Virus record (IMG/VR): IMGVR_UViG_3300008266_000512
Coordinates: 1 to 23,368 of that record
Origin: a virus
Reading direction: 5' to 3' (one strand)
Length of the DNA stretch: 23,368 nt
In this document: positions 1-22,602 of the stretch, piece by piece
Position numbering within the stretch: position 1 is the first letter of the stretch
Layout of the letters: the number at the start of each line of letters is the position of its first letter
The notes under the pieces: model-generated
The model's database searches: none
What the model was told of the DNA's origin: nothing
What the model saw: only the letters and a program-made list of their open reading frames with translations
Translations under genes and position numbers: made by a program

Positions 1-3
1 CAT
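1..3 (-). CDS. Start codon of a further downstream gene (cut by window edge)
   Basis: The first three bases read as an ATG on the minus strand, two bases after the stop codon of the preceding gene. This spacing matches the one- to two-base gaps and stop/start overlaps throughout the cluster, so another gene probably begins here and continues outside the window. Nothing can be said about its product. Confidence 0.35.
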
Positions 4-5
4 TA

Positions 6-194
6 TTACTTTCTTTTAGTAGTTCCACCTTTTTTAATAACTCCTCTACCTTTAAGGATATCTTTTTTAGTTACTTTACCGTCCCCTGTAAGATCAGGAA
101 AAGTACTACCTCCAGCAGCCATCTTCTTAGGTTTCTTACCAGCTTTTTTCATTGACATTGCAATTGCTGCTTGTTGTGCTCTATTTTTTGCCAT
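6..194 (-). CDS. Small basic protein with an EF-hand/dockerin-like calcium loop (62 aa)
   Basis: This 62-residue protein is rich in Lys and Arg at both ends. Residues 34-45 read DLTGDGKVTKKD, with acidic or polar residues at loop positions 1, 3, 5 and 12 and Gly at 6, matching the consensus of an EF-hand or dockerin calcium-binding loop. The C-terminus, KKGGTTKRK, recurs near the end of the 97-aa protein encoded at 1154-1447, which suggests a shared tail signal. Its start overlaps the 3' end of the upstream gene by 14 bases, so the two are translationally linked. I infer a small virion-associated or DNA-associated protein. Calcium binding is predicted from the motif only, and no specific function can be assigned. 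Confidence 0.72.
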   Translation of the reverse strand: MAKNRAQQAAIAMSMKKAGKKPKKMAAGGSTFPDLTGDGKVTKKDILKGRGVIKKGGTTKRK

Positions 195-435
195 TTCCTT
201 TACCTTTATATTTATAATCAGGATTGTCTTTATGCCACTTCTTAGTAGCAGCTACACCCTGCTTAACTGTTTTTGCTCTTCCTTTAGCCGTAAGATCTAT
301 TGTATCCCACTGACCTTTATCTTTAGTAGGATGGTTAACCATTATATGACCAACCTTTCCTTCACCTTTTTTAGTAGTTTTTTTATAAACCACATGTTTT
401 TCTCCTCCTGCTGTAACTTTTACTTTCTTAGCCAT
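181..435 (-). CDS. Small lysine-rich protein of unknown function (84 aa)
   Basis: This 84-residue, strongly basic protein has many Lys and few acidic residues. A more ordered centre (about residues 28-60) contains GHIMVNHPTKDKGQWDTIDL, and the tail is KWHKDNPDYKYKGKGNGKK. The ATG shares one base with the stop codon of the upstream gene (TAATG arrangement), which supports both the start and translational coupling. It belongs to the run of basic microproteins after the capsid genes. I do not recognise the family. The position and charge suggest a late, virion- or nucleic-acid-associated role, but that is inference. Confidence 0.7.
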   Translation of the reverse strand: MAKKVKVTAGGEKHVVYKKTTKKGEGKVGHIMVNHPTKDKGQWDTIDLTAKGRAKTVKQGVAATKKWHKDNPDYKYKGKGNGKK

Positions 436-659
436 TACTTGCTAAAATTCTTAAGTACATTCATTTGTTCCTGTGCTAGCTTCTTTACATCAGCCATCAT
501 CTTAGAATCTTTACGAATCTGCTCTGCTCTTTGTAAAGTACTCAATGCAGATTCAATTTCCCATTTACGCATCTCATTCTTACTAGGTCCAGAGATTGCT
601 GTACCACCTGTTTTTTTAACAGGTGTAGATTTCTTTGCAGTTGTTTTTTTAATTGCCAT
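435..659 (-). CDS. Small basic helical protein (74 aa)
   Basis: The first 25 residues form a Lys/Thr/Pro-rich tail (MAIKKTTAKKSTPVKKTGG). They are followed by a predicted amphipathic helical segment (about 28-74) with regular Leu, Met and Ala spacing, for example WEIESALSTLQRAEQIRKD. A flexible basic tail on a helical body resembles histone-tail or scaffold-like phage proteins, but I recognise no family. The start lies two bases after the stop of the upstream gene, and the stop overlaps the next start by one base. It is clearly part of the co-translated microprotein cluster. Confidence 0.72.
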   Translation of the reverse strand: MAIKKTTAKKSTPVKKTGGTAISGPSKNEMRKWEIESALSTLQRAEQIRKDSKMMADVKKLAQEQMNVLKNFSK

Positions 660-661
660 AA

Positions 662-823
662 CTATACATTTTTAACTCTTCTACCCATTCCTACTTTAGA
701 TTTCTCTGCTTTCTTAGCAGCTAGTTTAGAAGGAGTTAGTTCATACTTAGTTTTAGGAGTATCCTTTGATACTCTTTTGGTAGGCCTGCAGTACTCGTTT
801 TTACCACCAGCACCACATGGCAT
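662..823 (-). CDS. Small basic protein MPCGAGGK-type, or 3' half of a frameshifted gene (53 aa)
   Basis: Reading from the ATG at 823 gives a 53-residue Lys-rich protein starting MPCGAGGKNEYCRPTKR and ending GMGRRVKNV. It was found by hand translation. It overlaps the ORF at 736-906 in another frame by 88 bases, far more than the usual 1-14 bases in this cluster. Removing two bases near 817-818 (an AT in the minus-strand string GCCATGTGG) would join the two frames into one ORF reading AKC-R-GAGGKNEYC. This frame is therefore either an independent gene with its own start or the downstream half of a broken or programmed-frameshift gene. The coding character is good either way. Confidence 0.55.
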   Translation of the reverse strand: MPCGAGGKNEYCRPTKRVSKDTPKTKYELTPSKLAAKKAEKSKVGMGRRVKNV

Positions 824-906
824 TTAGCAATAGCTTGAGAAGCTCTCGCAGATGGAAAGACCGCATATCTTGCTTTAACACTATGGTAGCATGCATCCTT
901 TGCCAT
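736..906 (-). CDS. Small DACYxxVKARYxVFPSA-type phage protein, probably frameshifted (56 aa as read)
   Basis: The first 29 residues (MAKDACYHSVKARYAVFPSA then RASQAIAKC) match a widespread small phage/bacterial motif recalled from family knowledge as DACYxKVKxRYxVFPSAxASxAxxxCR. After residue 29 the reading turns into a hydrophobic, non-typical tail (HVVLVVKTSTAG), while the neighbouring frame carries the Lys-rich sequence expected of this cluster. The start shares one base with the stop of the upstream gene (TAATG), which supports it. The likely intact product would run on into the 662-823 frame. The function of the motif is not known to me. Confidence 0.55.
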   Translation of the reverse strand: MAKDACYHSVKARYAVFPSARASQAIAKCHVVLVVKTSTAGLPKEYQRILLKLSMN

Positions 907-1157
907 TACTTATTTTTTCTAGCCTTAGCCATTGCCTTAAAGGTTCTAGCTAATGCCTTACGTTTAGGTGTACAGGTAGGTTTACTCATTGGTGTACAGT
1001 ATCCTTTATGTTCTGGATTCACTGCTTTCTGTATCCACTTCTTATCAGTAGACCCGCCTTTCTTCATTGGCTTAGCTAGATCAACCTTTTTAGATGCAGA
1101 GTAAGCCCTAGGTGATTTAGGACTTACTTCTGCAGCTTTATTTTTCATTGCTTTCAT
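906..1157 (-). CDS. Small basic protein with KKWIQKAV motif (83 aa)
   Basis: This 83-residue Lys-rich protein contains KKGGSTDKKWIQKAVNPEHK and then KRKALARTFKAMAKARKNK at the C-terminus. The KKWIQKA followed by a basic C-terminal helix is a layout I recall from many small uncharacterised phage proteins, and Cys residues sit in a Pro/Thr-rich linker (GYCTPMSKPTCTPKRK). The start overlaps the stop of the upstream gene (ATGA), and the stop overlaps the next start by one base. An internal Met at residue 31 could be an alternative start. A nucleic-acid-binding or capsid-internal role is plausible from charge only. Confidence 0.72.
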   Translation of the reverse strand: MKAMKNKAAEVSPKSPRAYSASKKVDLAKPMKKGGSTDKKWIQKAVNPEHKGYCTPMSKPTCTPKRKALARTFKAMAKARKNK

Positions 1158-1447
1158 CGCTTAGCTTTACGCTTAGTAGTTCCACCTTTCTTTTCTTTCT
1201 TCAAAAGTTCTTTACCCAAAGCTAATGTACCTAAAATACCTGATGCAACTCCTGACCATGTCATAGCATTTTGAGCTCTATTATTTTTAAGCTCTTGTCT
1301 TTTTTGTTTCTTATCAGCTAAACTTTCGTAACCCTGAGCAATAGCTTTTTCATTACGTTTTTCAGCTATAGTTTTTTTAGGTTTTGGACCACCATTTTTC
1401 ATTTTAGTGCGTCCACCACACGACTTACAAGTTAATGACTTTTTCAT
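1154..1447 (-). CDS. Basic protein with N-terminal CxxC and a central hydrophobic segment (97 aa)
   Basis: I place the start at the ATG giving MKKSLTCKSCGGRTKMKNGG. A longer reading from 1540 would run into the upstream small gene and adds unconvincing sequence. C7 and C10 form one CxxC pair that could bind metal. Residues 62-82 (MTWSGVASGILGTLALGKELL) are hydrophobic and could be a short membrane or packing helix. The C-terminus KKGGTTKRKAKR shares GGTTKRK with the 62-aa protein at 6-194. The stop overlaps the next start as ATGA. No family is recognised. The hydrophobic segment sets it apart from its neighbours. Confidence 0.68.
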   Translation of the reverse strand: MKKSLTCKSCGGRTKMKNGGPKPKKTIAEKRNEKAIAQGYESLADKKQKRQELKNNRAQNAMTWSGVASGILGTLALGKELLKKEKKGGTTKRKAKR

Positions 1448-1457
1448 AATATCAAGA

Positions 1458-1607
1458 TTATCTACCCTGACCTTTCTTAGGCATAGCATTTTTACCGCCA
1501 GTGTATCTTGTAGGATTTTTTTGTGCTGTAACATTAGCATTAGTTCCTCCTACACGTCCTGTTGCTTTCTTAGAAGCATATACAGGTGTATTTTTATGTG
1601 ATCCCAT
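1458..1607 (-). CDS. Small basic protein (49 aa), first gene of the microprotein cluster
   Basis: Hand translation from the ATG at 1607 gives 49 residues beginning MGSHKNTPVYASKKATGRVG and ending GKNAMPKKGQGR. It is rich in Lys, Gly and Thr, with no clear hydrophobic core, and is probably extended or disordered. It lies ten bases before the start of the next gene. It is the first gene after a promoter-like element at about 1623-1648, so it probably opens the basic-microprotein transcription unit. The function is unknown. Confidence 0.65.
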   Translation of the reverse strand: MGSHKNTPVYASKKATGRVGGTNANVTAQKNPTRYTGGKNAMPKKGQGR

Positions 1608-2745: not shown

Positions 2746-4365
2746 TTAGAATGATCCACCAGTGATTGGGTTTCTCATAACAATCTTAAGGACTTTAGTA
2801 GGATCCTTAACCCAGATCGCAGGCATAGTTTGTGTCATATATACACGATATCCATTGAACTGACCAGAAGACTGGAATCCTTGGCTACGTCCCATGTAAT
2901 CCATAGTACCATTCTGATACCACCACTTCAATTGATTGTCCCAAGACAACTTCAATAGGTAGATGTTATCATTTGTATTATCAGTGATATCAAAGATAAT
3001 GAATGAGTAAGAAGACAATGGGTTACCATCGATGATTGGGTTTTCAATATCATTAGTATGGATGTTATCAAATGCTGGGTTAAGAACAAACTTAACGTTA
3101 GCAAGGAATGGGATGATATAGCTAGTATATGCAAATCCAAATCCTAGATCCATACCTTTGTTAGTGATTGCTCCAATATCAGCAGCAAGGATGTTCAAGT
3201 TAGAAGAAGCTGCTTCACGCTTAATAGCCTCATTAACCATACGCATACCACCAATTCCTGTCTGAACAATAAGCTGACGCTTAGGATCTGGACCTTGGAA
3301 TTCTACACGACCTGCATAGAAGTTGTAAAGCTCTGAACGGAATAATTCAAGAGAGAAGCTAGATTTGTTATATACTCTTTTGAAAGAGCTATCCAACTGC
3401 TTCCAAAGACCTACAGAAAGACGTAGATCATCTGGACCATCTTGACGAAGTCTACCTCCGTGTCCCCACATAAGATAAGTCTCGATGTCAGTAGCAATCT
3501 TAGTCAAGTGTGCAGCTTCCATAGAAGTCAAGAAAGTACGAGAAAGATCTCCATTTCCAATTGCACGCTTAACATAATCTTTACCCATCTTAGCAACCAT
3601 ATCCTCAATGTTAGAGATAGATGGATCCATAGATTTGTCAAAGTTTCTCCAGATCTCAGTTACAGGAACTGTACCATCTGCATTCATTCCTCCTTTGATC
3701 ATCATATCTGCACGAGAAGAGATAGAGTAATGAACATGAGCTTCTGCACCTCCTACGTAGTTGTAGAATTCACGGAAACCTGACTTAGTTTGGATATCAG
3801 AGAATCTTTCACCATATTCTCCACGCGCAGAACCTTTACGGAAGAATTTAGTACCATTTGTAAGATACTTATTATCCAAGAACTTGTAGTTGTCATTGTT
3901 TACAAGTTGAACTGTATAGATGAATCCATCTCCAATAGGAAGGATATCTTCTTCAGGAACTACGTAAAGTTCGACACCATTGTACTTGTCATAAGTGATG
4001 ATGTCTCCATGACCAAACTCACGCTTGTTAAGCTTGATTTTGAATGTAGTTCCATCAACACCTTTTGCAAGGTTCTGTGGTTCGATATCTTCGATGATAT
4101 ACGCTAGATCTTGAGCTACAGGTGTTTGCCACTTGTACTCTCCTCTTACGTTATCTACGTTGATAACATTTTTACCACCAAAGGATGACATTTGATAAAG
4201 GGGCATTTCAACCTTTTGAGTCATAGCCCAAATGTCTACAGGACCTAAATCCATAGGTTCTGCATCCTTCAGCATGTTTACAAGGTGGTATGAATCCACG
4301 TGAGAAGACGCATTGTACTGCGTATCACGAAGGAATATACCATTGTTTAAAACTGGAGTTGCCAT
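2746..4365 (-). CDS. Major capsid protein, HK97-fold expected (539 aa)
   Basis: It is identified as the shell protein from gene order (TerL, portal, scaffold-like protein, then this gene) and size. Its composition is balanced, with mixed alpha/beta regions, no signal peptide, no membrane segment and few Cys, as expected for a capsid subunit. Codon choice also stands out: AAC, TAC, TTC, ATC and AAG are frequent here, whereas neighbours favour AAT, TAT, TTT and AAA. This is a common mark of very high expression. The strong hairpin right after the gene fits the same idea. I see no direct family motif, and the N-terminus gives no obvious protease site. A different abundant structural protein is the main alternative. 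Confidence 0.72.
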   Translation of the reverse strand: MATPVLNNGIFLRDTQYNASSHVDSYHLVNMLKDAEPMDLGPVDIWAMTQKVEMPLYQMSSFGGKNVINVDNVRGEYKWQTPVAQDLAYIIEDIEPQNLAKGVDGTTFKIKLNKREFGHGDIITYDKYNGVELYVVPEEDILPIGDGFIYTVQLVNNDNYKFLDNKYLTNGTKFFRKGSARGEYGERFSDIQTKSGFREFYNYVGGAEAHVHYSISSRADMMIKGGMNADGTVPVTEIWRNFDKSMDPSISNIEDMVAKMGKDYVKRAIGNGDLSRTFLTSMEAAHLTKIATDIETYLMWGHGGRLRQDGPDDLRLSVGLWKQLDSSFKRVYNKSSFSLELFRSELYNFYAGRVEFQGPDPKRQLIVQTGIGGMRMVNEAIKREAASSNLNILAADIGAITNKGMDLGFGFAYTSYIIPFLANVKFVLNPAFDNIHTNDIENPIIDGNPLSSYSFIIFDITDNTNDNIYLLKLSWDNQLKWWYQNGTMDYMGRSQGFQSSGQFNGYRVYMTQTMPAIWVKDPTKVLKIVMRNPITGGSF

Positions 4366-5790: not shown

Positions 5791-8559
5791 CTATGATTTT
5801 TTATTCTTTTTTTCAGTAGGTTTTTTAGGTTTTACGTCAAATCGATTTTTATTTTCTCTAGCTATATCCATTTCCATTTGCTTAATGTTTGTTTGATGGT
5901 TCATTTTTTCTTTTTCCATCTGCATCTTTTGAGCAAACTGATTATTCTTATTAATTTCTTTTTCTCTATCCATGTTCATAGTCTCCTGATATTCAGCAGT
6001 TTTACGCATAGATTCCATTTGATCAACAAAATCAGATTGTAGATTTTGATTAACATCTTGCATAGCACCATACCCAGATGCTTTAATTTCAGCTACAAGA
6101 AGATCTTTTCTTCTGTTCTTCTCAGCTTCCATTTGTTCAAACTCTCTTTCATTTGCTTTTTCTTGAGCAGCGGCTTCAAGTTCCATCTGTTTCATTTTTT
6201 CAGCTTGAGCATATTCTTCTTGTTTCTGCCGTTTCTGTTTAGATTCAATATCTTTTAGAATATTATTTAGGTGACCCATAGAGTCAGTCTGTAGGATATG
6301 TCCTAAATCATAAATAGAAGCACCAGATGTATTGTTAGATATAGCAAGTTGCTTCATCTGCTCAATAATTGTTCTATGGTTAGCCTTAGTAGAACAGAAT
6401 ACATTAAGATCACGCATTAAAAGATCTGTACCATTTATTTCAAAGTTGATGCGCTCATCATTGGATGTACTTACCTGCATTCTAATAGATGGTTTAGTAG
6501 AAGCATAATACTGTGCTAAGTCTGTACGCATCTGATGCACACGTGGCATTAGATGATCAGAGTGCTGAGTAAAGTACTGTTCTGTCTGTGCATAAGATCC
6601 TGCAATAGCTTGTTCAATACCTGTGGCAGTATTTGTCTGACCTAATTGTTGCCCTAGACGTTGTGGTGTAATACCTATTACTTCAAATGCTTGTTGCTTA
6701 AAGAAGTTAGCTAACTGAATACGAGAAAGCATACGTTGGGTTTGCTCTAGGTTAAGAACCTGGAAATGTTGGAAGTTAAGAGCATTCTCAGTATTAGTAA
6801 TTGAAGTATCTAATGGTAACATACCAAAATCTTTCATTGCAACATATGCTTTAGCAAGGTTACCCTTACCCCAGTCTTCACCTAATGAATGTTGTGGTAA
6901 TGTATTCTGATCTAGCATAATTACAGATCCAATTTCATCAACAAGGATATCAGATATCTGATTGTTCACCATGTTATATGAAATCTGGAATGGTTTCATT
7001 AAATCTACAAGGGATACAGATTTTGTATTTCTATCAGAAAATACTCGACCCTCTACAGGGAGTTTACATCCATATAATGTGTTATCACCTTTAAACTGAA
7101 ATTTCATAGGCTTAATCCTGTTCTGCATGATACCAAGATACATAGGATTGATACCTCCAGGGTTTTGCATTCCCCACCATGATGGCATGTTAGGACCTAT
7201 TTTAACACCACCCCATACCTGATTAATCCATATCCAGTCAATATGCTCACCAAATAATAGATTATCCTTGGACTTATTCTTAAAGAAAGTAGTATCATAC
7301 ATAGGTTTATCTACAATTTTATAATGCTCATCTACTATCTTATTTATAACTGAACCATCTTCATCTATCTTAGTAAGATGTCCTATCTTACGTTGAGATT
7401 TCCAATATGCTGTAGTTACACGAAGCATGTGCGCAGTACCCATGTCATAGTAGTCTTCTGACTCACCCATAATCCAGTTAATGATATCTCCTCCATTATA
7501 AACAAAGTTATCATACATAGAAGTAAACTGACGATACTCTAAAGAAGGTCTGTTTACGTTCCACTCATGAGATCTTGTAGCATCATAGTAAGTACCATCA
7601 TTTTGATATCCCTGGATAGGATAACCAGCAGATCTTACAGGATAGATTGCCTCAATAGATTCAAGTTGCTCTTCAGACATTATCCATCCGTATTTATCAA
7701 TTATGTCTGATGCAGTAAGCATTTCTATTTTACCTACCCAATTACCTTGAGATATATAACGTACATCAGGAGATTTATGGTAGAATGTAAGTACGGGATT
7801 CCATAACTCAAGATTATAATCATCCTCAAGCATTTGGAAATGCCAGAATTCTCTATCTGTTATAAGAGCATCTTCAAAAGCGCGTTCTTCTAATTCATCC
7901 AGCTTAAATCTTTCCTCATCAATAAGATGTTGTTTAGATGCCCATTCTTCACAAAGACTGATATAATCTTTAGCGTAAAACTTTTCAATTTCAGGAAGTG
8001 ACTTAATAGCTTCAGGTGACATAGCCTTTTTAATCTCTGGATCATTAGGATCAGCACCCATTTCAATAAATTTAGCAGCTAATTTCTGTTCTGCTTCTTT
8101 TACTAATGCTTCTTCTATGTCAGCTCTTTTAGCTTCCATAATTTCATTATAAGTGTACTCATCAACAGCTCTAAAGTTTACACGTGTATTTCTTTTAGCA
8201 AACTCTGCTGTAAGTACCTTAATGACATTAGGAATAATTGGATAAAATTTAAGTTCTAATGCAGAAGGATAGTCTCTTGCCAATGTATCTACGATATCTC
8301 TATACTCATTATCTTCTTCTATTAGATAATCAGTTTTATCAATGATACCTTTGGCCAACTTATAGTTCTTCATCAACCTTCTAGCATTTCTACGAATATG
8401 TTTTAAACCTTGCCATTCTAGCCAGTCCATATTCCATGCTGTCCAATCATCATCCTTATCTTTTGCAGGTAAGAATTGAAGAGGCTGAGTGATATTACCT
8501 AAACGGTTATATTCAGCTCTTTTGCCCTTTTTAAGTTGGAGCGCGTTTAAAATTTCCAT
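5791..8559 (-). CDS. Portal protein with long C-terminal coiled coil (922 aa)
   Basis: This large protein is encoded directly after TerL with the stop/start TAATG overlap, the standard place for a portal. The first ~750 residues are mixed alpha/beta with many Trp and Tyr, as in portal wing/stem/clip domains. A segment near 560-640 resembles the helical crown-proximal part seen in other large portals. The last ~155 residues are strongly charged coiled coil (Gln, Glu, Lys, Met-rich, e.g. EKMKQMELEAAAQEKANERE) with a Lys-rich end. The portal forms the dodecameric ring at one capsid vertex that DNA passes through. At 922 residues it is long for the family, and the coiled-coil tail probably accounts for the excess, perhaps as an internal barrel. 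The assignment rests mainly on synteny and size. Confidence 0.78.
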   Translation of the reverse strand: MEILNALQLKKGKRAEYNRLGNITQPLQFLPAKDKDDDWTAWNMDWLEWQGLKHIRRNARRLMKNYKLAKGIIDKTDYLIEEDNEYRDIVDTLARDYPSALELKFYPIIPNVIKVLTAEFAKRNTRVNFRAVDEYTYNEIMEAKRADIEEALVKEAEQKLAAKFIEMGADPNDPEIKKAMSPEAIKSLPEIEKFYAKDYISLCEEWASKQHLIDEERFKLDELEERAFEDALITDREFWHFQMLEDDYNLELWNPVLTFYHKSPDVRYISQGNWVGKIEMLTASDIIDKYGWIMSEEQLESIEAIYPVRSAGYPIQGYQNDGTYYDATRSHEWNVNRPSLEYRQFTSMYDNFVYNGGDIINWIMGESEDYYDMGTAHMLRVTTAYWKSQRKIGHLTKIDEDGSVINKIVDEHYKIVDKPMYDTTFFKNKSKDNLLFGEHIDWIWINQVWGGVKIGPNMPSWWGMQNPGGINPMYLGIMQNRIKPMKFQFKGDNTLYGCKLPVEGRVFSDRNTKSVSLVDLMKPFQISYNMVNNQISDILVDEIGSVIMLDQNTLPQHSLGEDWGKGNLAKAYVAMKDFGMLPLDTSITNTENALNFQHFQVLNLEQTQRMLSRIQLANFFKQQAFEVIGITPQRLGQQLGQTNTATGIEQAIAGSYAQTEQYFTQHSDHLMPRVHQMRTDLAQYYASTKPSIRMQVSTSNDERINFEINGTDLLMRDLNVFCSTKANHRTIIEQMKQLAISNNTSGASIYDLGHILQTDSMGHLNNILKDIESKQKRQKQEEYAQAEKMKQMELEAAAQEKANEREFEQMEAEKNRRKDLLVAEIKASGYGAMQDVNQNLQSDFVDQMESMRKTAEYQETMNMDREKEINKNNQFAQKMQMEKEKMNHQTNIKQMEMDIARENKNRFDVKPKKPTEKKNKKS

Positions 8560-10772
8560 TATCTAAGTTTTCTATATGGTAATCTAGGTAATCTACTTCC
8601 ACTTGAACCTCCCTTTCGATTACCCATATGTCGAAAAGGGGTACTATTTAATTTATATAAATTATCTGAGATTTGCAAGTTTTTAGTTCTTACATCGTCA
8701 ACTCTTTTACTATATCCTCTATTTGATTGCTGTACTTTAGCAAACGCAATCAAAGCAGCTAGTGAAACAAGTCTATCCACGTTAGTACCTGGTCTGTATT
8801 GTTCCATTTCTACTAATGACATGTAATCTGTTATTCTTTCTACACCATATGTAGTAGAAATAACAGTACCATCTTCATCAGTTTCCTGATTGATTTCTTC
8901 TGTAAGCCAACCAATTAAGTAGCTGAGAAGATGTGTTTTAAATATAGTACCTGTATTCTTCCAGCCATAATCAGAATAAACAGACTTATTAGCACCTAGA
9001 TCTTTAAGAAAAACAATCTGATTTTTAGGTACTAAATATTTTTGTTTTCTTCTTTCAATCATATACTGAATAAAGAGTGATACGTTGTTTTCTACAATTG
9101 TCCAAGCATTATACCACTCAATGATGAGCTCTAGTTGCTCATGTGTTTTAGTAAGATCATCATACCTACCACACCATGATGCTACTATTTTATCTCCTTC
9201 TGCAAGATTTTCTACTCCTCTATCTGTAATTCTGGTTACCTCTACAGGATTTTTGTATACATGTATAGAGCAAAGCGATTCTGATGTAGTTGTCTTACCT
9301 TCACCTACAGGGTCAACAGATGCGTAATATGTACCCCATTTAGAATCAGGAACAGGTCTTTCATATACAATAAGTACTCCACGTTTATCTTCAAGCTTCT
9401 TATCTACGGGAAACTGCATAATTGGAAGCCTTCTTGATTGCTTGGCATTGATATCCCCATTCATCATCCTTTCCAGCTCAATATGCTCATAAGGAAACTC
9501 TTTATCTTCAATACGTTTTTTTTGAGCTCCTATAAGTAAAAGTGGGAATACTGATTCATCACGAAAAGCAAAAGCTTCTTTTATATTGATAGGGTGCTGA
9601 GATATACGTAATCTGTAGATCTCAGGTGAAAGATTTCTTTTCCACTCTTCTCGTATTAGCTCAATTGCTTCTAATGATTCTTTTATAAGTGAATTACCGT
9701 ACTTATCAATATATGGAGGCATAGACCAATGCTCAGGAATAAAAAGAGCTGTTCTACCTCTAACTCCTGTTTCATCTATAAGATCTGTTTCTACGCCATA
9801 CATACCATTAGCGTCTGGATTCATTGTAAAATCCTCTAATGGTTTACACTGTGATAAATCACCCACAGATCCTGCAGCAATAAATAATCCTGTAGTTATA
9901 CTGCCTGATTGCATTGCAGGTCGTAAGTATTCAAAGGTTTTGTTCATTGTAGGAGCAATACCTGCTTCTTCATAGAAGAAGTAAGAACAAGGTCCACCGA
10001 CGCCTTTTGTGTCAGATTGCTCAAAAGACATACCTTGAAGCATTCCTTTAAGTCCTTTCTCTTGCTTACGACCATTTTCAGTTACTTCAATCTTTTGCTG
10101 CCATGTAAGTACCTTACCTGGATTCATAGGACGATACCATGCTGTCTTAGAATTTAAGAATGCGCGATACTCATCTAGAAACTTCCAGGATCCTTCTAAG
10201 CCAATATAATCTTTAAGTGATGCGCCTAACTTAAGTATTACACCTCGTTCAAACCATATCTGATTAATGAACTTACCCATATGATAATATGAGGAAGCTA
10301 TCTGACGTTTCTTAAGTATACTGCAGTGCTTATAGTTTAATTCTGCGAGGCACTCATAAAGTGCCATGTGATATTGTGCATCACGCACACCTGCGAAGTC
10401 AAAGTTCTTTTTCTCCTTATCATATATTGGAAGGAAGTTAAGCCACATGTAGTAGTCACGTGGTAGATACCATGTTTTGTCTCCATTTTTAAATATTACT
10501 CCTTTACGACATTTTTCTTTTTCATTATCCCAGTAAGAGATGAAGTCTTTGCTCATATAAGGAGCCATACAGTAAACCTCACCCTGTTCTTTGAATTTGC
10601 GTGCCTGTTCATTAAAAGCAAATGATGTTTCATCAAATTCATATAAGCCAGGTTCTTTAAATAACGAAGTGAGAAATTCTATAAAGTCTTCTCTTGTATC
10701 AAAAGAAGATGTTTCCCATACACCATTATTCCATGTAGGAATTACATATTCTGGATCATTATAGCTGATCAT
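8559..10772 (-). CDS. terL: Terminase large subunit, ATPase plus nuclease (737 aa)
   Basis: TerL is the packaging motor that cuts concatemeric DNA and drives it into the capsid through the portal. The ATPase half shows a Walker B-like YFFYEEA at 264-270 with the catalytic Glu, and a coupling-type FIAAGSVGD at 297-305. The Walker A position (near 153-163, KKRQIASSYYH) lacks the usual GKS/T, reading ASS. The nuclease half has YYASVDPVGEG with D487, IVENN with E561, and NVDRLVSLAALIAF with D666, matching the three acidic positions of the RNase H-fold terminase nuclease. It overlaps the upstream gene by 14 bases and the portal gene by one base. The basic, Gly/Ser/Arg-rich C-terminus may contact portal or DNA. 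Family-level confidence is high. Confidence 0.9.
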   Translation of the reverse strand: MISYNDPEYVIPTWNNGVWETSSFDTREDFIEFLTSLFKEPGLYEFDETSFAFNEQARKFKEQGEVYCMAPYMSKDFISYWDNEKEKCRKGVIFKNGDKTWYLPRDYYMWLNFLPIYDKEKKNFDFAGVRDAQYHMALYECLAELNYKHCSILKKRQIASSYYHMGKFINQIWFERGVILKLGASLKDYIGLEGSWKFLDEYRAFLNSKTAWYRPMNPGKVLTWQQKIEVTENGRKQEKGLKGMLQGMSFEQSDTKGVGGPCSYFFYEEAGIAPTMNKTFEYLRPAMQSGSITTGLFIAAGSVGDLSQCKPLEDFTMNPDANGMYGVETDLIDETGVRGRTALFIPEHWSMPPYIDKYGNSLIKESLEAIELIREEWKRNLSPEIYRLRISQHPINIKEAFAFRDESVFPLLLIGAQKKRIEDKEFPYEHIELERMMNGDINAKQSRRLPIMQFPVDKKLEDKRGVLIVYERPVPDSKWGTYYASVDPVGEGKTTTSESLCSIHVYKNPVEVTRITDRGVENLAEGDKIVASWCGRYDDLTKTHEQLELIIEWYNAWTIVENNVSLFIQYMIERRKQKYLVPKNQIVFLKDLGANKSVYSDYGWKNTGTIFKTHLLSYLIGWLTEEINQETDEDGTVISTTYGVERITDYMSLVEMEQYRPGTNVDRLVSLAALIAFAKVQQSNRGYSKRVDDVRTKNLQISDNLYKLNSTPFRHMGNRKGGSSGSRLPRLPYRKLR

Positions 10773-11280
10773 ATCCTAGATTTTGACCTCCACGTACTGA
10801 TGTTTTACTCTGTTCTGCTTCAAGATCTTTAAGAACACCTTTGAATGATTCTCTAATTGCCTGAAAGTTTTTGGCTGCAGCAATAAGAGAGTTAATATTT
10901 CCATCTCTACCAGCTGTGATATTTGCTGTCTCCATATAGTAACTTAAGTTATCCAACATCTTTGCAATACCATTATATGCACGTAATGTAGGTGTTGTAT
11001 ACAATATAGTACATTTTTCAATTGCTTTTACAATTAGCTGATCATCTGTTGATACATCCAGACCAATTGACTCTACAATTAAATCCTCTTTATCATCTTC
11101 AGGCATGTTAAAGAATGGATTAAGTTCTGGGTTAGGACATGTCATATAAAAGATATAAGCATATATCTTAAGGTGATTGTCAGGATAGTTAACCATTATA
11201 TCATGCAGCCAGTTAATTGTATAACAGTGCTCTGTTGCTTTGATAACTCCATTTTCTAGATCAAACAGTTTTATTGTCAT
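10759..11280 (-). CDS. Helical protein directly upstream of TerL, possible small terminase (173 aa)
   Basis: This 173-residue, mostly helical protein has an acidic centre and a C-terminal helix (NFQAIRESFKGVLKDLEAEQ). Its start overlaps the stop of the nuclease gene as ATGA, and its stop overlaps TerL by 14 bases, so it is co-translated with TerL. Small terminase subunits usually lie just upstream of TerL and are helical oligomers of this size, so TerS is a reasonable guess. No helix-turn-helix motif is clear, and the name is not secure. The winged-helix-like gene at 12976-13347 is a competing TerS candidate. Confidence 0.6.
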   Translation of the reverse strand: MTIKLFDLENGVIKATEHCYTINWLHDIMVNYPDNHLKIYAYIFYMTCPNPELNPFFNMPEDDKEDLIVESIGLDVSTDDQLIVKAIEKCTILYTTPTLRAYNGIAKMLDNLSYYMETANITAGRDGNINSLIAAAKNFQAIRESFKGVLKDLEAEQSKTSVRGGQNLGYDQL

Positions 11281-19704: not shown

Positions 19705-20547
19705 TTATCCTATAAACCAATTATTACCATCTGAAAATACAGGTACTATATTAGTACCACCACCTGTAGCAATAACACCAAAGTTACCTAATGCAGGAAC
19801 AGTAGAATCACTAATAATAGCTGTTGCTCCAGGAAACCCTGGACTTGGAAGCACATTTAATACTACTACTGGATGTGCTATAAAACCCTCGTTTAAGGCA
19901 AAGTTCCAACTATTAACTATTCCAAGTATTGCAACATTACCAGAAATACCACTTGCACTACTACCCCCACGAATATATACATCAGGTCCTGCTATTCCTG
20001 TACGTGGTGTATAACCAGCTTCAATAGTTACATAACCTCCTTCTCCATTAATGCCAGAAACACTGGTACCACCAATACCTGCTGTAATTACAATATCTCC
20101 TCCATCACCTGCATTAGCTGCATTACCATCTGAACCGTTTCCTGCAGAAAGCCTTATATCTCCACCTTCAAATTCTTGGTCAAAAGTACCTTGATCACCT
20201 TCAAGTCTAATATCATCTCCTGATTGAAGAATAATATCATCTCCAGCTAGTGTTCTGATATATAAGTCAGAGTTTGGACTTGATGTCTGTATTACTGCCG
20301 CACCTGCATCAAATGTTAATTCTGCAACGCCACCAGCATCAGCTAGTACAACTTCTCTATCGCCAGCAACTAGTCTATCAGTAGCTAAATTAGTTGCTAA
20401 GTCTTCTACAGTAATAGCACCATCTGAATAACCCCCATCATAGTTATCATCCTTAATACCTACAATGATTAGATCTTTATTAGCAAGTTGCTTTCTAAGT
20501 CGTTTTCCTGCAATAATTGCCCTTAGATTTGATATATTATTCCACAT
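19705..20547 (-). CDS. Tail-fibre protein with MWNNISN anchor and Gly-rich repeats (280 aa)
   Basis: The first ~54 residues (MWNNISNLRAIIAGKRLRKQ and on to YDGGYSDGAITVEDL) match the start of the 180-aa protein at 20705-21247 at about half of positions, defining a shared N-terminal module. Residues about 95-200 carry repeats such as GDDIILQSGDDIRLEG and GGDIRLSAGNGSDG, a Gly/Asp-rich pattern typical of beta-solenoid or triple-beta shafts. The end (NFGVIATGGGTNIVPVFSDG then NNWFIG) is a beta tip. The design, conserved anchor plus different shaft and tip, is that of an exchangeable fibre. Confidence 0.75.
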   Translation of the reverse strand: MWNNISNLRAIIAGKRLRKQLANKDLIIVGIKDDNYDGGYSDGAITVEDLATNLATDRLVAGDREVVLADAGGVAELTFDAGAAVIQTSSPNSDLYIRTLAGDDIILQSGDDIRLEGDQGTFDQEFEGGDIRLSAGNGSDGNAANAGDGGDIVITAGIGGTSVSGINGEGGYVTIEAGYTPRTGIAGPDVYIRGGSSASGISGNVAILGIVNSWNFALNEGFIAHPVVVLNVLPSPGFPGATAIISDSTVPALGNFGVIATGGGTNIVPVFSDGNNWFIG

Positions 20548-20704: not shown

Positions 20705-21247
20705 TTAAATTGTGTAAAGTTCATAATAAACATATAACGCGCCTTCCCAGTTATTTGTATCTGCGGCCAAAGGATTAGCATTATACAAGCTAAATCCTAC
20801 TCCATTAGGATCCAATCCTGTTGAAACAAGATAAGGAATTGCATTGTCATCAGCAGCTTGAGAATAGTATACAGAATACTGTAGATATACATTATCTCTG
20901 TTGCCAACAGTTAAATCGAGCTCAGGATTATCAATGTAAAACACATAAGGTGCACCAAAGTTTTCAACTGGTCCACCACCTACATTTGTATTAATGATAT
21001 CAATAATTCCCTTAGTAGTATTCACTGTAACAGTAAAAGGAAAAACACTAATATCTAATTCATAATGTGCAGTATTCTGTACATCCGCAGCATTTACAAG
21101 ATCTTTTGGTTTAATAGCAGCATCTCTATAATTACCATCGTAGCTTTCATCACGTGCACCTAATGGTAATAGATCAAGATCATTAAGCTTGGTACGCACC
21201 ATTCTATTAGCAATAATGGCTGCGAAGTTTGAAATATTATTCCACAT
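20705..21247 (-). CDS. Fibre-type protein with MWNNISN anchor (180 aa)
   Basis: The N-terminal ~54 residues (MWNNISNFAAIIANRMVRTK, then LDLLPLGARDESYDGNYRD) are shared with the 280-aa protein downstream. The remaining ~125 residues are an unrelated beta-rich domain with Asp, Asn and Tyr (FYIDNPELDLTVGNRDNVYL, then QYSVYYSQAADDNAIPYL). The common N-terminus probably binds the same tail site, and the C-terminal domain gives specificity. It is the first gene after a terminator and a promoter-like element, so it starts the adhesion transcript. Confidence 0.72.
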   Translation of the reverse strand: MWNNISNFAAIIANRMVRTKLNDLDLLPLGARDESYDGNYRDAAIKPKDLVNAADVQNTAHYELDISVFPFTVTVNTTKGIIDIINTNVGGGPVENFGAPYVFYIDNPELDLTVGNRDNVYLQYSVYYSQAADDNAIPYLVSTGLDPNGVGFSLYNANPLAADTNNWEGALYVYYELYTI

Positions 21248-22303: not shown

Positions 22304-22465
22304 TTATTTGACAATTACATAACTACAGTATTTTTTTTGTGACTCTATATTAATCTTATGGATGTCATCTATATCAACATCACCATATGCATCACATTTA
22401 TGTGAACTTGTCTTACAAGATACCATTATAAAAACTATCCCCCCTATTAATCCTAACTTCCTCAT
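22304..22465 (-). CDS. Small lipoprotein with CDAYG motif (53 aa)
   Basis: Hand translation from the ATG at 22465 gives 53 residues. MRKLGLIGGIVFIMVSC is a short lipoprotein signal peptide with lipobox MVSC and C17. After it come KTSSHKCDAYG and an acidic segment (DVDIDDIHKIN). The CDAYG element after a Ser/Thr-rich linker is reminiscent of small lipoproteins in Bacteroidota and their phages. It would be exported and lipidated, possibly acting in superinfection exclusion, but that role is a guess. The start overlaps the stop of the upstream gene as ATGA. Confidence 0.65.
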   Translation of the reverse strand: MRKLGLIGGIVFIMVSCKTSSHKCDAYGDVDIDDIHKINIESQKKYCSYVIVK

Positions 22466-22602
22466 CTCCCCTGTGCGCGATACGCTTTTTTATAATTCTT
22501 ACTCGATTTAAGCTTAGACGTCTTTGTCTTAGCATGTACACCTGGTCGTGATACCTTCACCCTAAACAGCTTCTTACTAGATGCTTCTTTAACCTTTGCC
22601 AT
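22462..22602 (-). CDS. Tiny basic protein ending KNYKKAYRAQGR (46 aa)
   Basis: Hand translation from the ATG at 22602 gives 46 residues: MAKVKEASSKKLFRVKVSRP, then GVHAKTKTSKLKSSKNYKKA and YRAQGR. The KTSKLKxSKNYKKxYRxQGR end is a pattern I recall from small uncharacterised proteins of Bacteroidota phages. It is highly basic and probably binds nucleic acid. It has an upstream GAAAGGA that could serve as an SD-like site, unlike most genes here, and a promoter-like element just before that. The stop overlaps the lipoprotein start. Confidence 0.65.
   Translation of the reverse strand: MAKVKEASSKKLFRVKVSRPGVHAKTKTSKLKSSKNYKKAYRAQGR

Follow-up and report, generated by a model that had tools for sequence, protein, structure and literature searches.

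What is the role of a tightly packed row of small, strongly basic genes that sits beside the head genes of a virus? The window considered here is an entire IMG/VR record of 23,368 b; the row lies on its minus strand and is truncated by the contig end, so the array is incomplete in the window. An initial reading of the sequence had proposed that such a set could comprise DNA-condensing or packaged internal proteins, or early-acting proteins that are injected along with the DNA.

Context and coding status of the small basic genes

The minus-strand head genes of the window include TerL (8559-10772), a portal gene (5791-8559), a gene for a 423-aa protein, and a crAss-like major capsid protein (MCP; 2746-4365) that matches phrog_11589 (E 1e-30) and, by tblastn, csAssE, cr10_1, Cellulophaga phi17:2, and Leptolyngbya Lbo-JY46. 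Cellulophaga phi4:1 is a further MCP relative, and identity to csAssE, cr10_1, and Lbo-JY46 is 22-27%. A crAss-type MCP, portal, and TerL are thus all found in the window (phrog_11589, phrog_6547, and phrog_6681). The fragment stops short of the ring and muzzle genes, which are found in its relatives (CrAss_Ring_1, 3e-11; CrAss_Ring_2, 6e-23; muzzle, 26-28% identity over 68-82%). Judged by these markers, the phage is crAss-like and belongs to the order Crassvirales or to a sister group. Between the MCP and the array, and bordering the latter, lies the conserved gene p337 (1644-2657, minus), for which 64 homologues were recovered with dN/dS of 0.05-0.2.

All eight minus-strand ORFs that had been counted as separate basic microproteins are present, although they amount to seven genes, one of them broken. 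From the contig end inward, these begin with a 62-aa basic protein (6-194; 20 homologues, dN/dS mostly 0.06-0.45) that is laid out as a RAQQAAIA module, the string KMAAGGST, an FPDLTGDGKVT loop, and the tail KKGGTTKRK; the loop is EF-hand/dockerin-like, with a Dockerin_1 score of 14.3 bits that falls under the cut-off. It is followed by an 84-aa basic protein (181-435), which carries the 'g84' module (KVKVTAGGEKHVVYKK...WDTIDLTAKG), and a 74-aa basic protein (435-659; 20 homologues, dN/dS 0.06-0.36) of the MRKWEIESALSTLQRAEQIRK family. Beyond the broken gene are an 83-aa basic protein (906-1157; 25 homologues, dN/dS 0.02-0.07), in which a SPRAYSASKK part is joined through PMKKGGST to a WIQKA module, and a 97-aa basic protein (1154-1447; homologue in relative L003, dN/dS 0.17) with a CxxCGG-type start, a hydrophobic stretch (WSGVASGILGTLALG), and the tail KKGGTTKRKAKR. 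A 49-aa basic protein of the ASKKATGRVGGTNA...NPTRYTGGKN family (1458-1607; 10 homologues, dN/dS 0.06-0.54) completes the row. The TAATG junctions at 906 and 435, the ATGA junction at 1154-1157, and the GGTTKRK tails of the 62- and 97-aa proteins are all as the first-pass annotation described them. ORFs on the opposite strand are probably a shadow of the Lys codons.

The broken gene (662-906, minus) consists of an N half (736-906; 56 aa) with a frame-shifted tail, which matches phrog_727, and a C half (662-823; 53 aa), which matches DUF5872 (PF19197) at 29.2 bits, over the Pfam cut-off of 27.5. Its intact counterpart in relatives is a 112-aa gene, scoring 49.4 bits against DUF5872 in one of them, and DNA alignment with the relatives indicates that the window is without 94 bp at about 820/821, causing the frameshift. 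A count of eight separate genes is ruled out, since this deletion splits a single gene into the 56- and 53-aa ORFs. The deletion junction was absent from every other IMG/VR contig, which points to a mutation private to this contig or to an error of assembly.

The remaining ORFs all have homologues among 80 close relatives, with dN/dS mostly <0.3. Chance ORFs are ruled out by values this far below 1 and, on the evidence of conserved frames, the window ORFs are genes under purifying selection; the reservation that most might lack conserved homologues, with dN/dS near 1, did not materialize. The 84-aa protein is identical to that of relative L018 over 82 aa (100% amino acid identity) at a dS of 1.69, in a pair whose p337 proteins are just 58% identical. 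Its family has 196 relatives in IMG/VR and no match among phage records.

Two further features lie toward the opposite end of the contig. A small basic ORF of 46 aa (22462-22602, minus) has the C-terminus KKAYRAQGR; a YRGQGR-ending family to which it belongs has relatives in G003, G006, and G007, and a more distant one in pelagiphage HTVC010P gp39, which ends in KKYNRQGR. Two neighboring tail-fibre-like genes (19705-20547 and 20705-21247, minus) have a common start, MWNNISN..AIIA, and diverge thereafter, as if tips had been exchanged on a common adaptor.

A recurrent slot with hypervariable content

The array was found again after the capsid genes of relatives, as had been suggested for checking, and there the strand and gene order of its slot are unchanged. 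On the far side from p337 the slot is bounded by a gene taken to be ring protein 1, because the csAssE gene at this next-conserved position is annotated as a ring/adaptor protein and because the late-region proteins of relative G001 include matches to both CrAss_Ring_1 and CrAss_Ring_2 (Pfam). Across 50 relatives with a complete p337-ring protein 1 interval, that interval is as short as 13 b and as long as 4.25 kb, with a median of 2.4 kb, and holds 0-15 genes. The 13-b gap, which leaves no space for an array, occurs in two relatives (L037 and L065), indicating that the array is dispensable. In phi17:2, csAssE, and Lbo-JY46, the counterpart of p337 directly abuts that of ring protein 1, and no array is present.

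The content of the slot turns over rapidly. Arrays flanked by p337 proteins that are 99% identical share as few as 25-43% of their gene families, while other such pairs share all of them; these figures score fusions as different families and so overstate loss somewhat. A total of 141 families were distinguished among 339 distinct array proteins. Of 160 loci encoding DUF5872 or the 84-aa family, 141 also carry a homologue of p337 or ring protein 1, and the remainder represent a second basic-gene site or other phage groups. DUF6321 (PF19846) was detected in the arrays of relatives at 73.7 bits, over the Pfam cut-off, and in 11 of 12 long relatives; it is absent from the window, where the array is truncated by the contig end. 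Of the proteins encoded by 363 array genes in relatives, 96% carry a net charge of +5 or more. Lys accounts for 19% of their residues, 97% of the array sequence is coding, and the median net charge per array is +124. In a 122.6-kb relative, the array, a single block of 3.8 kb, holds 10 of the 13 strongly basic small ORFs.

Other insertions were seen in and around the slot. A fibre-like gene resembling the one at 20705-21247 of the window is inserted within the basic-protein array of one relative (L016:10743-11180), which indicates that the slot also takes non-basic cassettes. In another (L013:11582-12052), the first residues of an HNH endonuclease-like ORF are those of ring protein 1 (MLNSVITIKIKEL), and the remainder of that protein comes after the ORF, likely reflecting an intron or homing insertion in the ring protein 1 gene.

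A GG seam in array and post-muzzle proteins

The small proteins had been described as unrelated apart from shared tails. The shared strings are real; however, they are copies of a standard seam that joins interchangeable modules. Its consensus is K-M-K-x-G-G-(S/T), with M at position -3 of the GG enriched 7.4-fold and S/T following the GG, and typical examples are KPKMKSGGST|PAWTR and AKPMKKGGST|DKKWIQKA. For seven modules (DUF6321, WIQKA, the 84-aa module, FPDLTGDG, HPGFK, LGSG, and NPN), a GG lies no more than 10 residues before the module in 40 of 40 N-terminally extended cases, where about 8 would be expected; the module patterns were written after inspection of examples and this comparison is thus descriptive. 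All of these modules except FPDLTGDG were also seen free. The seam ends many proteins as well: 94 of the 339 array proteins (28%) have a GG in their last 12 residues, against 30.5 +/- 5 after shuffling. Outside the array, a basic protein encoded upstream of TerL in G001 (L256:9137-9445, minus) has the same motif, in the strings SMQKGG and SYAAGG and the tail KKGGAVARKK.

One explanation of a seam at exactly the module boundaries is that the proteins are polyprotein-like precursors, from which a maturation protease would free modules and short basic peptides by cutting at the GG, much as in adenovirus core proteins or the T4 internal proteins. The same modules do occur free and fused (24 free and 11 fused for DUF6321), and when a two-module protein was modelled with AlphaFold, the seam fell in a segment with pLDDT <50, although the model is weak as a whole. 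A protease to match was sought. Among about 70 proteins of G001, a Pfam search for a maturation or head protease returned only M15 endolysin-type and metallopeptidase-like domains, and no Ulp1-type protease was found in 12 long relatives, although the control also had no match and this result is weak. A site of adenovirus type is rejected, as [MLIF].GG, with F allowed, is not enriched (25 proteins versus 36 in shuffled sequences). Cutting at the seam is less favored because no maturation protease was found, and we regard precursor processing as improbable. Structural searches added little, the AlphaFold models (mean pLDDT 57 and 59) being too weak for a fold search and PDB profile searches with the post-muzzle proteins, the muzzle, and two modules returning nothing credible.

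The strong content turnover and the shuffling of modules could also mean that the seam is a shared sequence through which cassettes recombine, or a neutral linker, having no role in the particle. The Gly codons of the seam are mixed and near genome usage, so that its DNA is not fixed, which disfavors a DNA recombination seam. The motif is also found at C-termini and in large post-muzzle proteins where shuffling is not evident, and we consider this explanation very unlikely.

The post-muzzle proteins were compared in seven near-complete relatives (G001-G007), whose muzzle was identified by tblastn matches to the csAssE 'Muzzle protein' and phi4:1 gp42. The muzzle is followed by as many as three large proteins and, beyond these, by a protein of ~1,000 aa and giant RNAP-size proteins. 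Relative to shuffled sequences, [MLYFI]xxGG, K..GG[STA], and KA[QKR]xG are enriched 4.9-, 4.7-, and 2.3-fold in the microproteins and 3.2-, 3.8-, and 6.8-fold in the three post-muzzle proteins. These counts are not fully independent, but identity of the post-muzzle proteins to the G001 copy is low, at 19-37%. The muzzle itself gave 1.6, 0.9, and 0, and RNAP, capsid/packaging, and other proteins are not enriched, at 0-1.2 (KAxxG up to 1.9). One post-muzzle protein retains a ..GG..E(Y/F)L C-terminus in all seven relatives, its remainder being 19-26% identical.

Links of the post-muzzle proteins to other phages are confined to one protein and are weak: one of the three finds a match in a 495-aa protein of Lbo-JY46 (4e-12). 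In Cellulophaga phage phi4:1, gp38-gp42 are annotated as detected by MS/MS in virions, and the syntenic gp40, which has a similar start, contains KKFQSGGSF, KMLKSGGEL, and the C-terminal string NKLKWGGKKR. In crAss001, the genes for gp45 and gp46 lie directly after the muzzle gene. These two proteins are cargo detected in the virion and are numbered beside the RNAP subunits gp47-gp50 (PMC10172136). By position, the post-muzzle proteins of the relatives are probably particle cargo, and the seam motif that they have in common with the microproteins suggests that the latter are probably packaged too. The earlier proposal of packaged or injected proteins thereby gains indirect support.

Possible roles and comparison with known systems

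The block can be described as an array of hypervariable cassettes placed among the late head/tail genes of a crAss-like aquatic phage, and the reading that we prefer, and to which we give an even chance, is that its products are made late, packaged, and in contact with DNA. Each gene encodes a short protein, strongly basic and built from a single small module or a few of them; the flexible K-M-K-x-G-G-(S/T) seam joins the modules and ends many of the proteins. Made late, these proteins would travel in the particle beside the large cargo/ejection proteins, which bear the same seam, would associate with the packaged DNA through their positive charge, and may enter the host along with it. The seam could serve as a joint between modules or as a tag by which they are recruited into the particle. 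That the proteins condense DNA is a conjecture drawn from their charge. A bolder version, which we hold only tentatively, is that the short GG-containing code shared with large ejected proteins admits arbitrary basic modules, making the array a row of exchangeable mini-proteins, a plug-in cargo swapped between near-identical phages.

Alternatively, the proteins may act outside the virion, as small basic nucleic-acid-binding, host-takeover, or assembly factors in the infected cell, their location providing just late expression. Sharp content turnover suits accessory host-interaction genes, and the occurrence of the same modules in other viruses is pertinent. DUF6321 is present in 519 phage records, mainly of cyanophages and pelagiphages, and in T4-like cyanophages several modules are fused in one protein (syn9 gp114 and S-SM1_115). 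S-SM1_115 is annotated 'hypothetical', whereas the same record designates others of its proteins as virion structural; as S-SM1 virions were profiled by MS, the missing label counts against packaging in cyanophages. The cyanophage fusion homologue is, moreover, located in a mobile metabolic cassette region (PMC3037559), and pelagiphage HTVC034P carries a small cluster of the same families away from its capsid genes. Against a role outside the virion stands the seam motif, which is shared with the post-muzzle proteins and with no other proteins of the same genomes; we judge such a role possible, though the less probable one.

In the unrelated podophage HMO-2011, gp63, gp67, and gp69 have related modules and GG motifs, M-x-x-GG recurs in the large late protein gp25 (L299:22504-24624), and an unannotated basic ORF of 50 aa (L089, about 10629-10781) has three motif copies (KKMMRGGM). 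DUF5872 and DUF5754 proteins are also listed for the algal giant virus Chrysochromulina virus CpV-BQ1 (PMC12085832). The literature found directly on DUF5872/DUF5754 consists of one giant-virus and one polinton-like-virus paper, with none on DUF6321. The statement that a cluster like this has no described function holds, although several of its modules are known DUFs (DUF5872 and DUF6321) common in aquatic phages. Such small basic modules, to which no role has been assigned, occur widely among aquatic phages as well as in algal giant viruses. A swappable late-region array whose seam recurs in candidate ejected proteins offers a testable hypothesis of virion cargo and a packaging code, one that bears on many orphan families and on what crAss-like phages deliver beyond RNA polymerase.

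Four known systems invite comparison. Adenovirus core proteins are small basic virion proteins with GG-containing motifs, cut at (MIL)xGG; the M-x-x-GG spacing of the array differs, and no adenain/Ulp1-like protease was found. T4 internal proteins are hypervariable between T-even phages. Like the array proteins, IPI-IPIII are small and otherwise dissimilar and share a short sequence element, which in T4 is an N-terminal targeting sequence of ~10 aa removed by the head protease (PMC7697877). The array element, in contrast, lies between modules or at the C-terminus; a T4-type N-terminal, protease-cut peptide was not seen in the array, nor a head protease by Pfam. Crassvirus cargo (crAss001 gp45/gp46 and the RNAP subunits; PMC10172136) resembles the array in coming from late-region genes of crAss-like phages, and the post-muzzle proteins in that slot share the seam motif; the array proteins differ in being 40-250 aa long, strongly basic, hypervariable, predicted from genes, and encoded beside the capsid gene rather than after the muzzle. 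Finally, the DUF5872/DUF6321 modules of cyanophages, pelagiphages, roseophages, and algal giant viruses belong to the same protein families as the array, and resemble it in the multi-module fusions of syn9 gp114 and S-SM1_115 and in the small-gene clusters of HTVC034P and HMO-2011. In those viruses they are fused into a single long protein or occupy a few genes at other places in the genome, whereas the array lines up as many as 15 genes in one fixed slot among the head genes.
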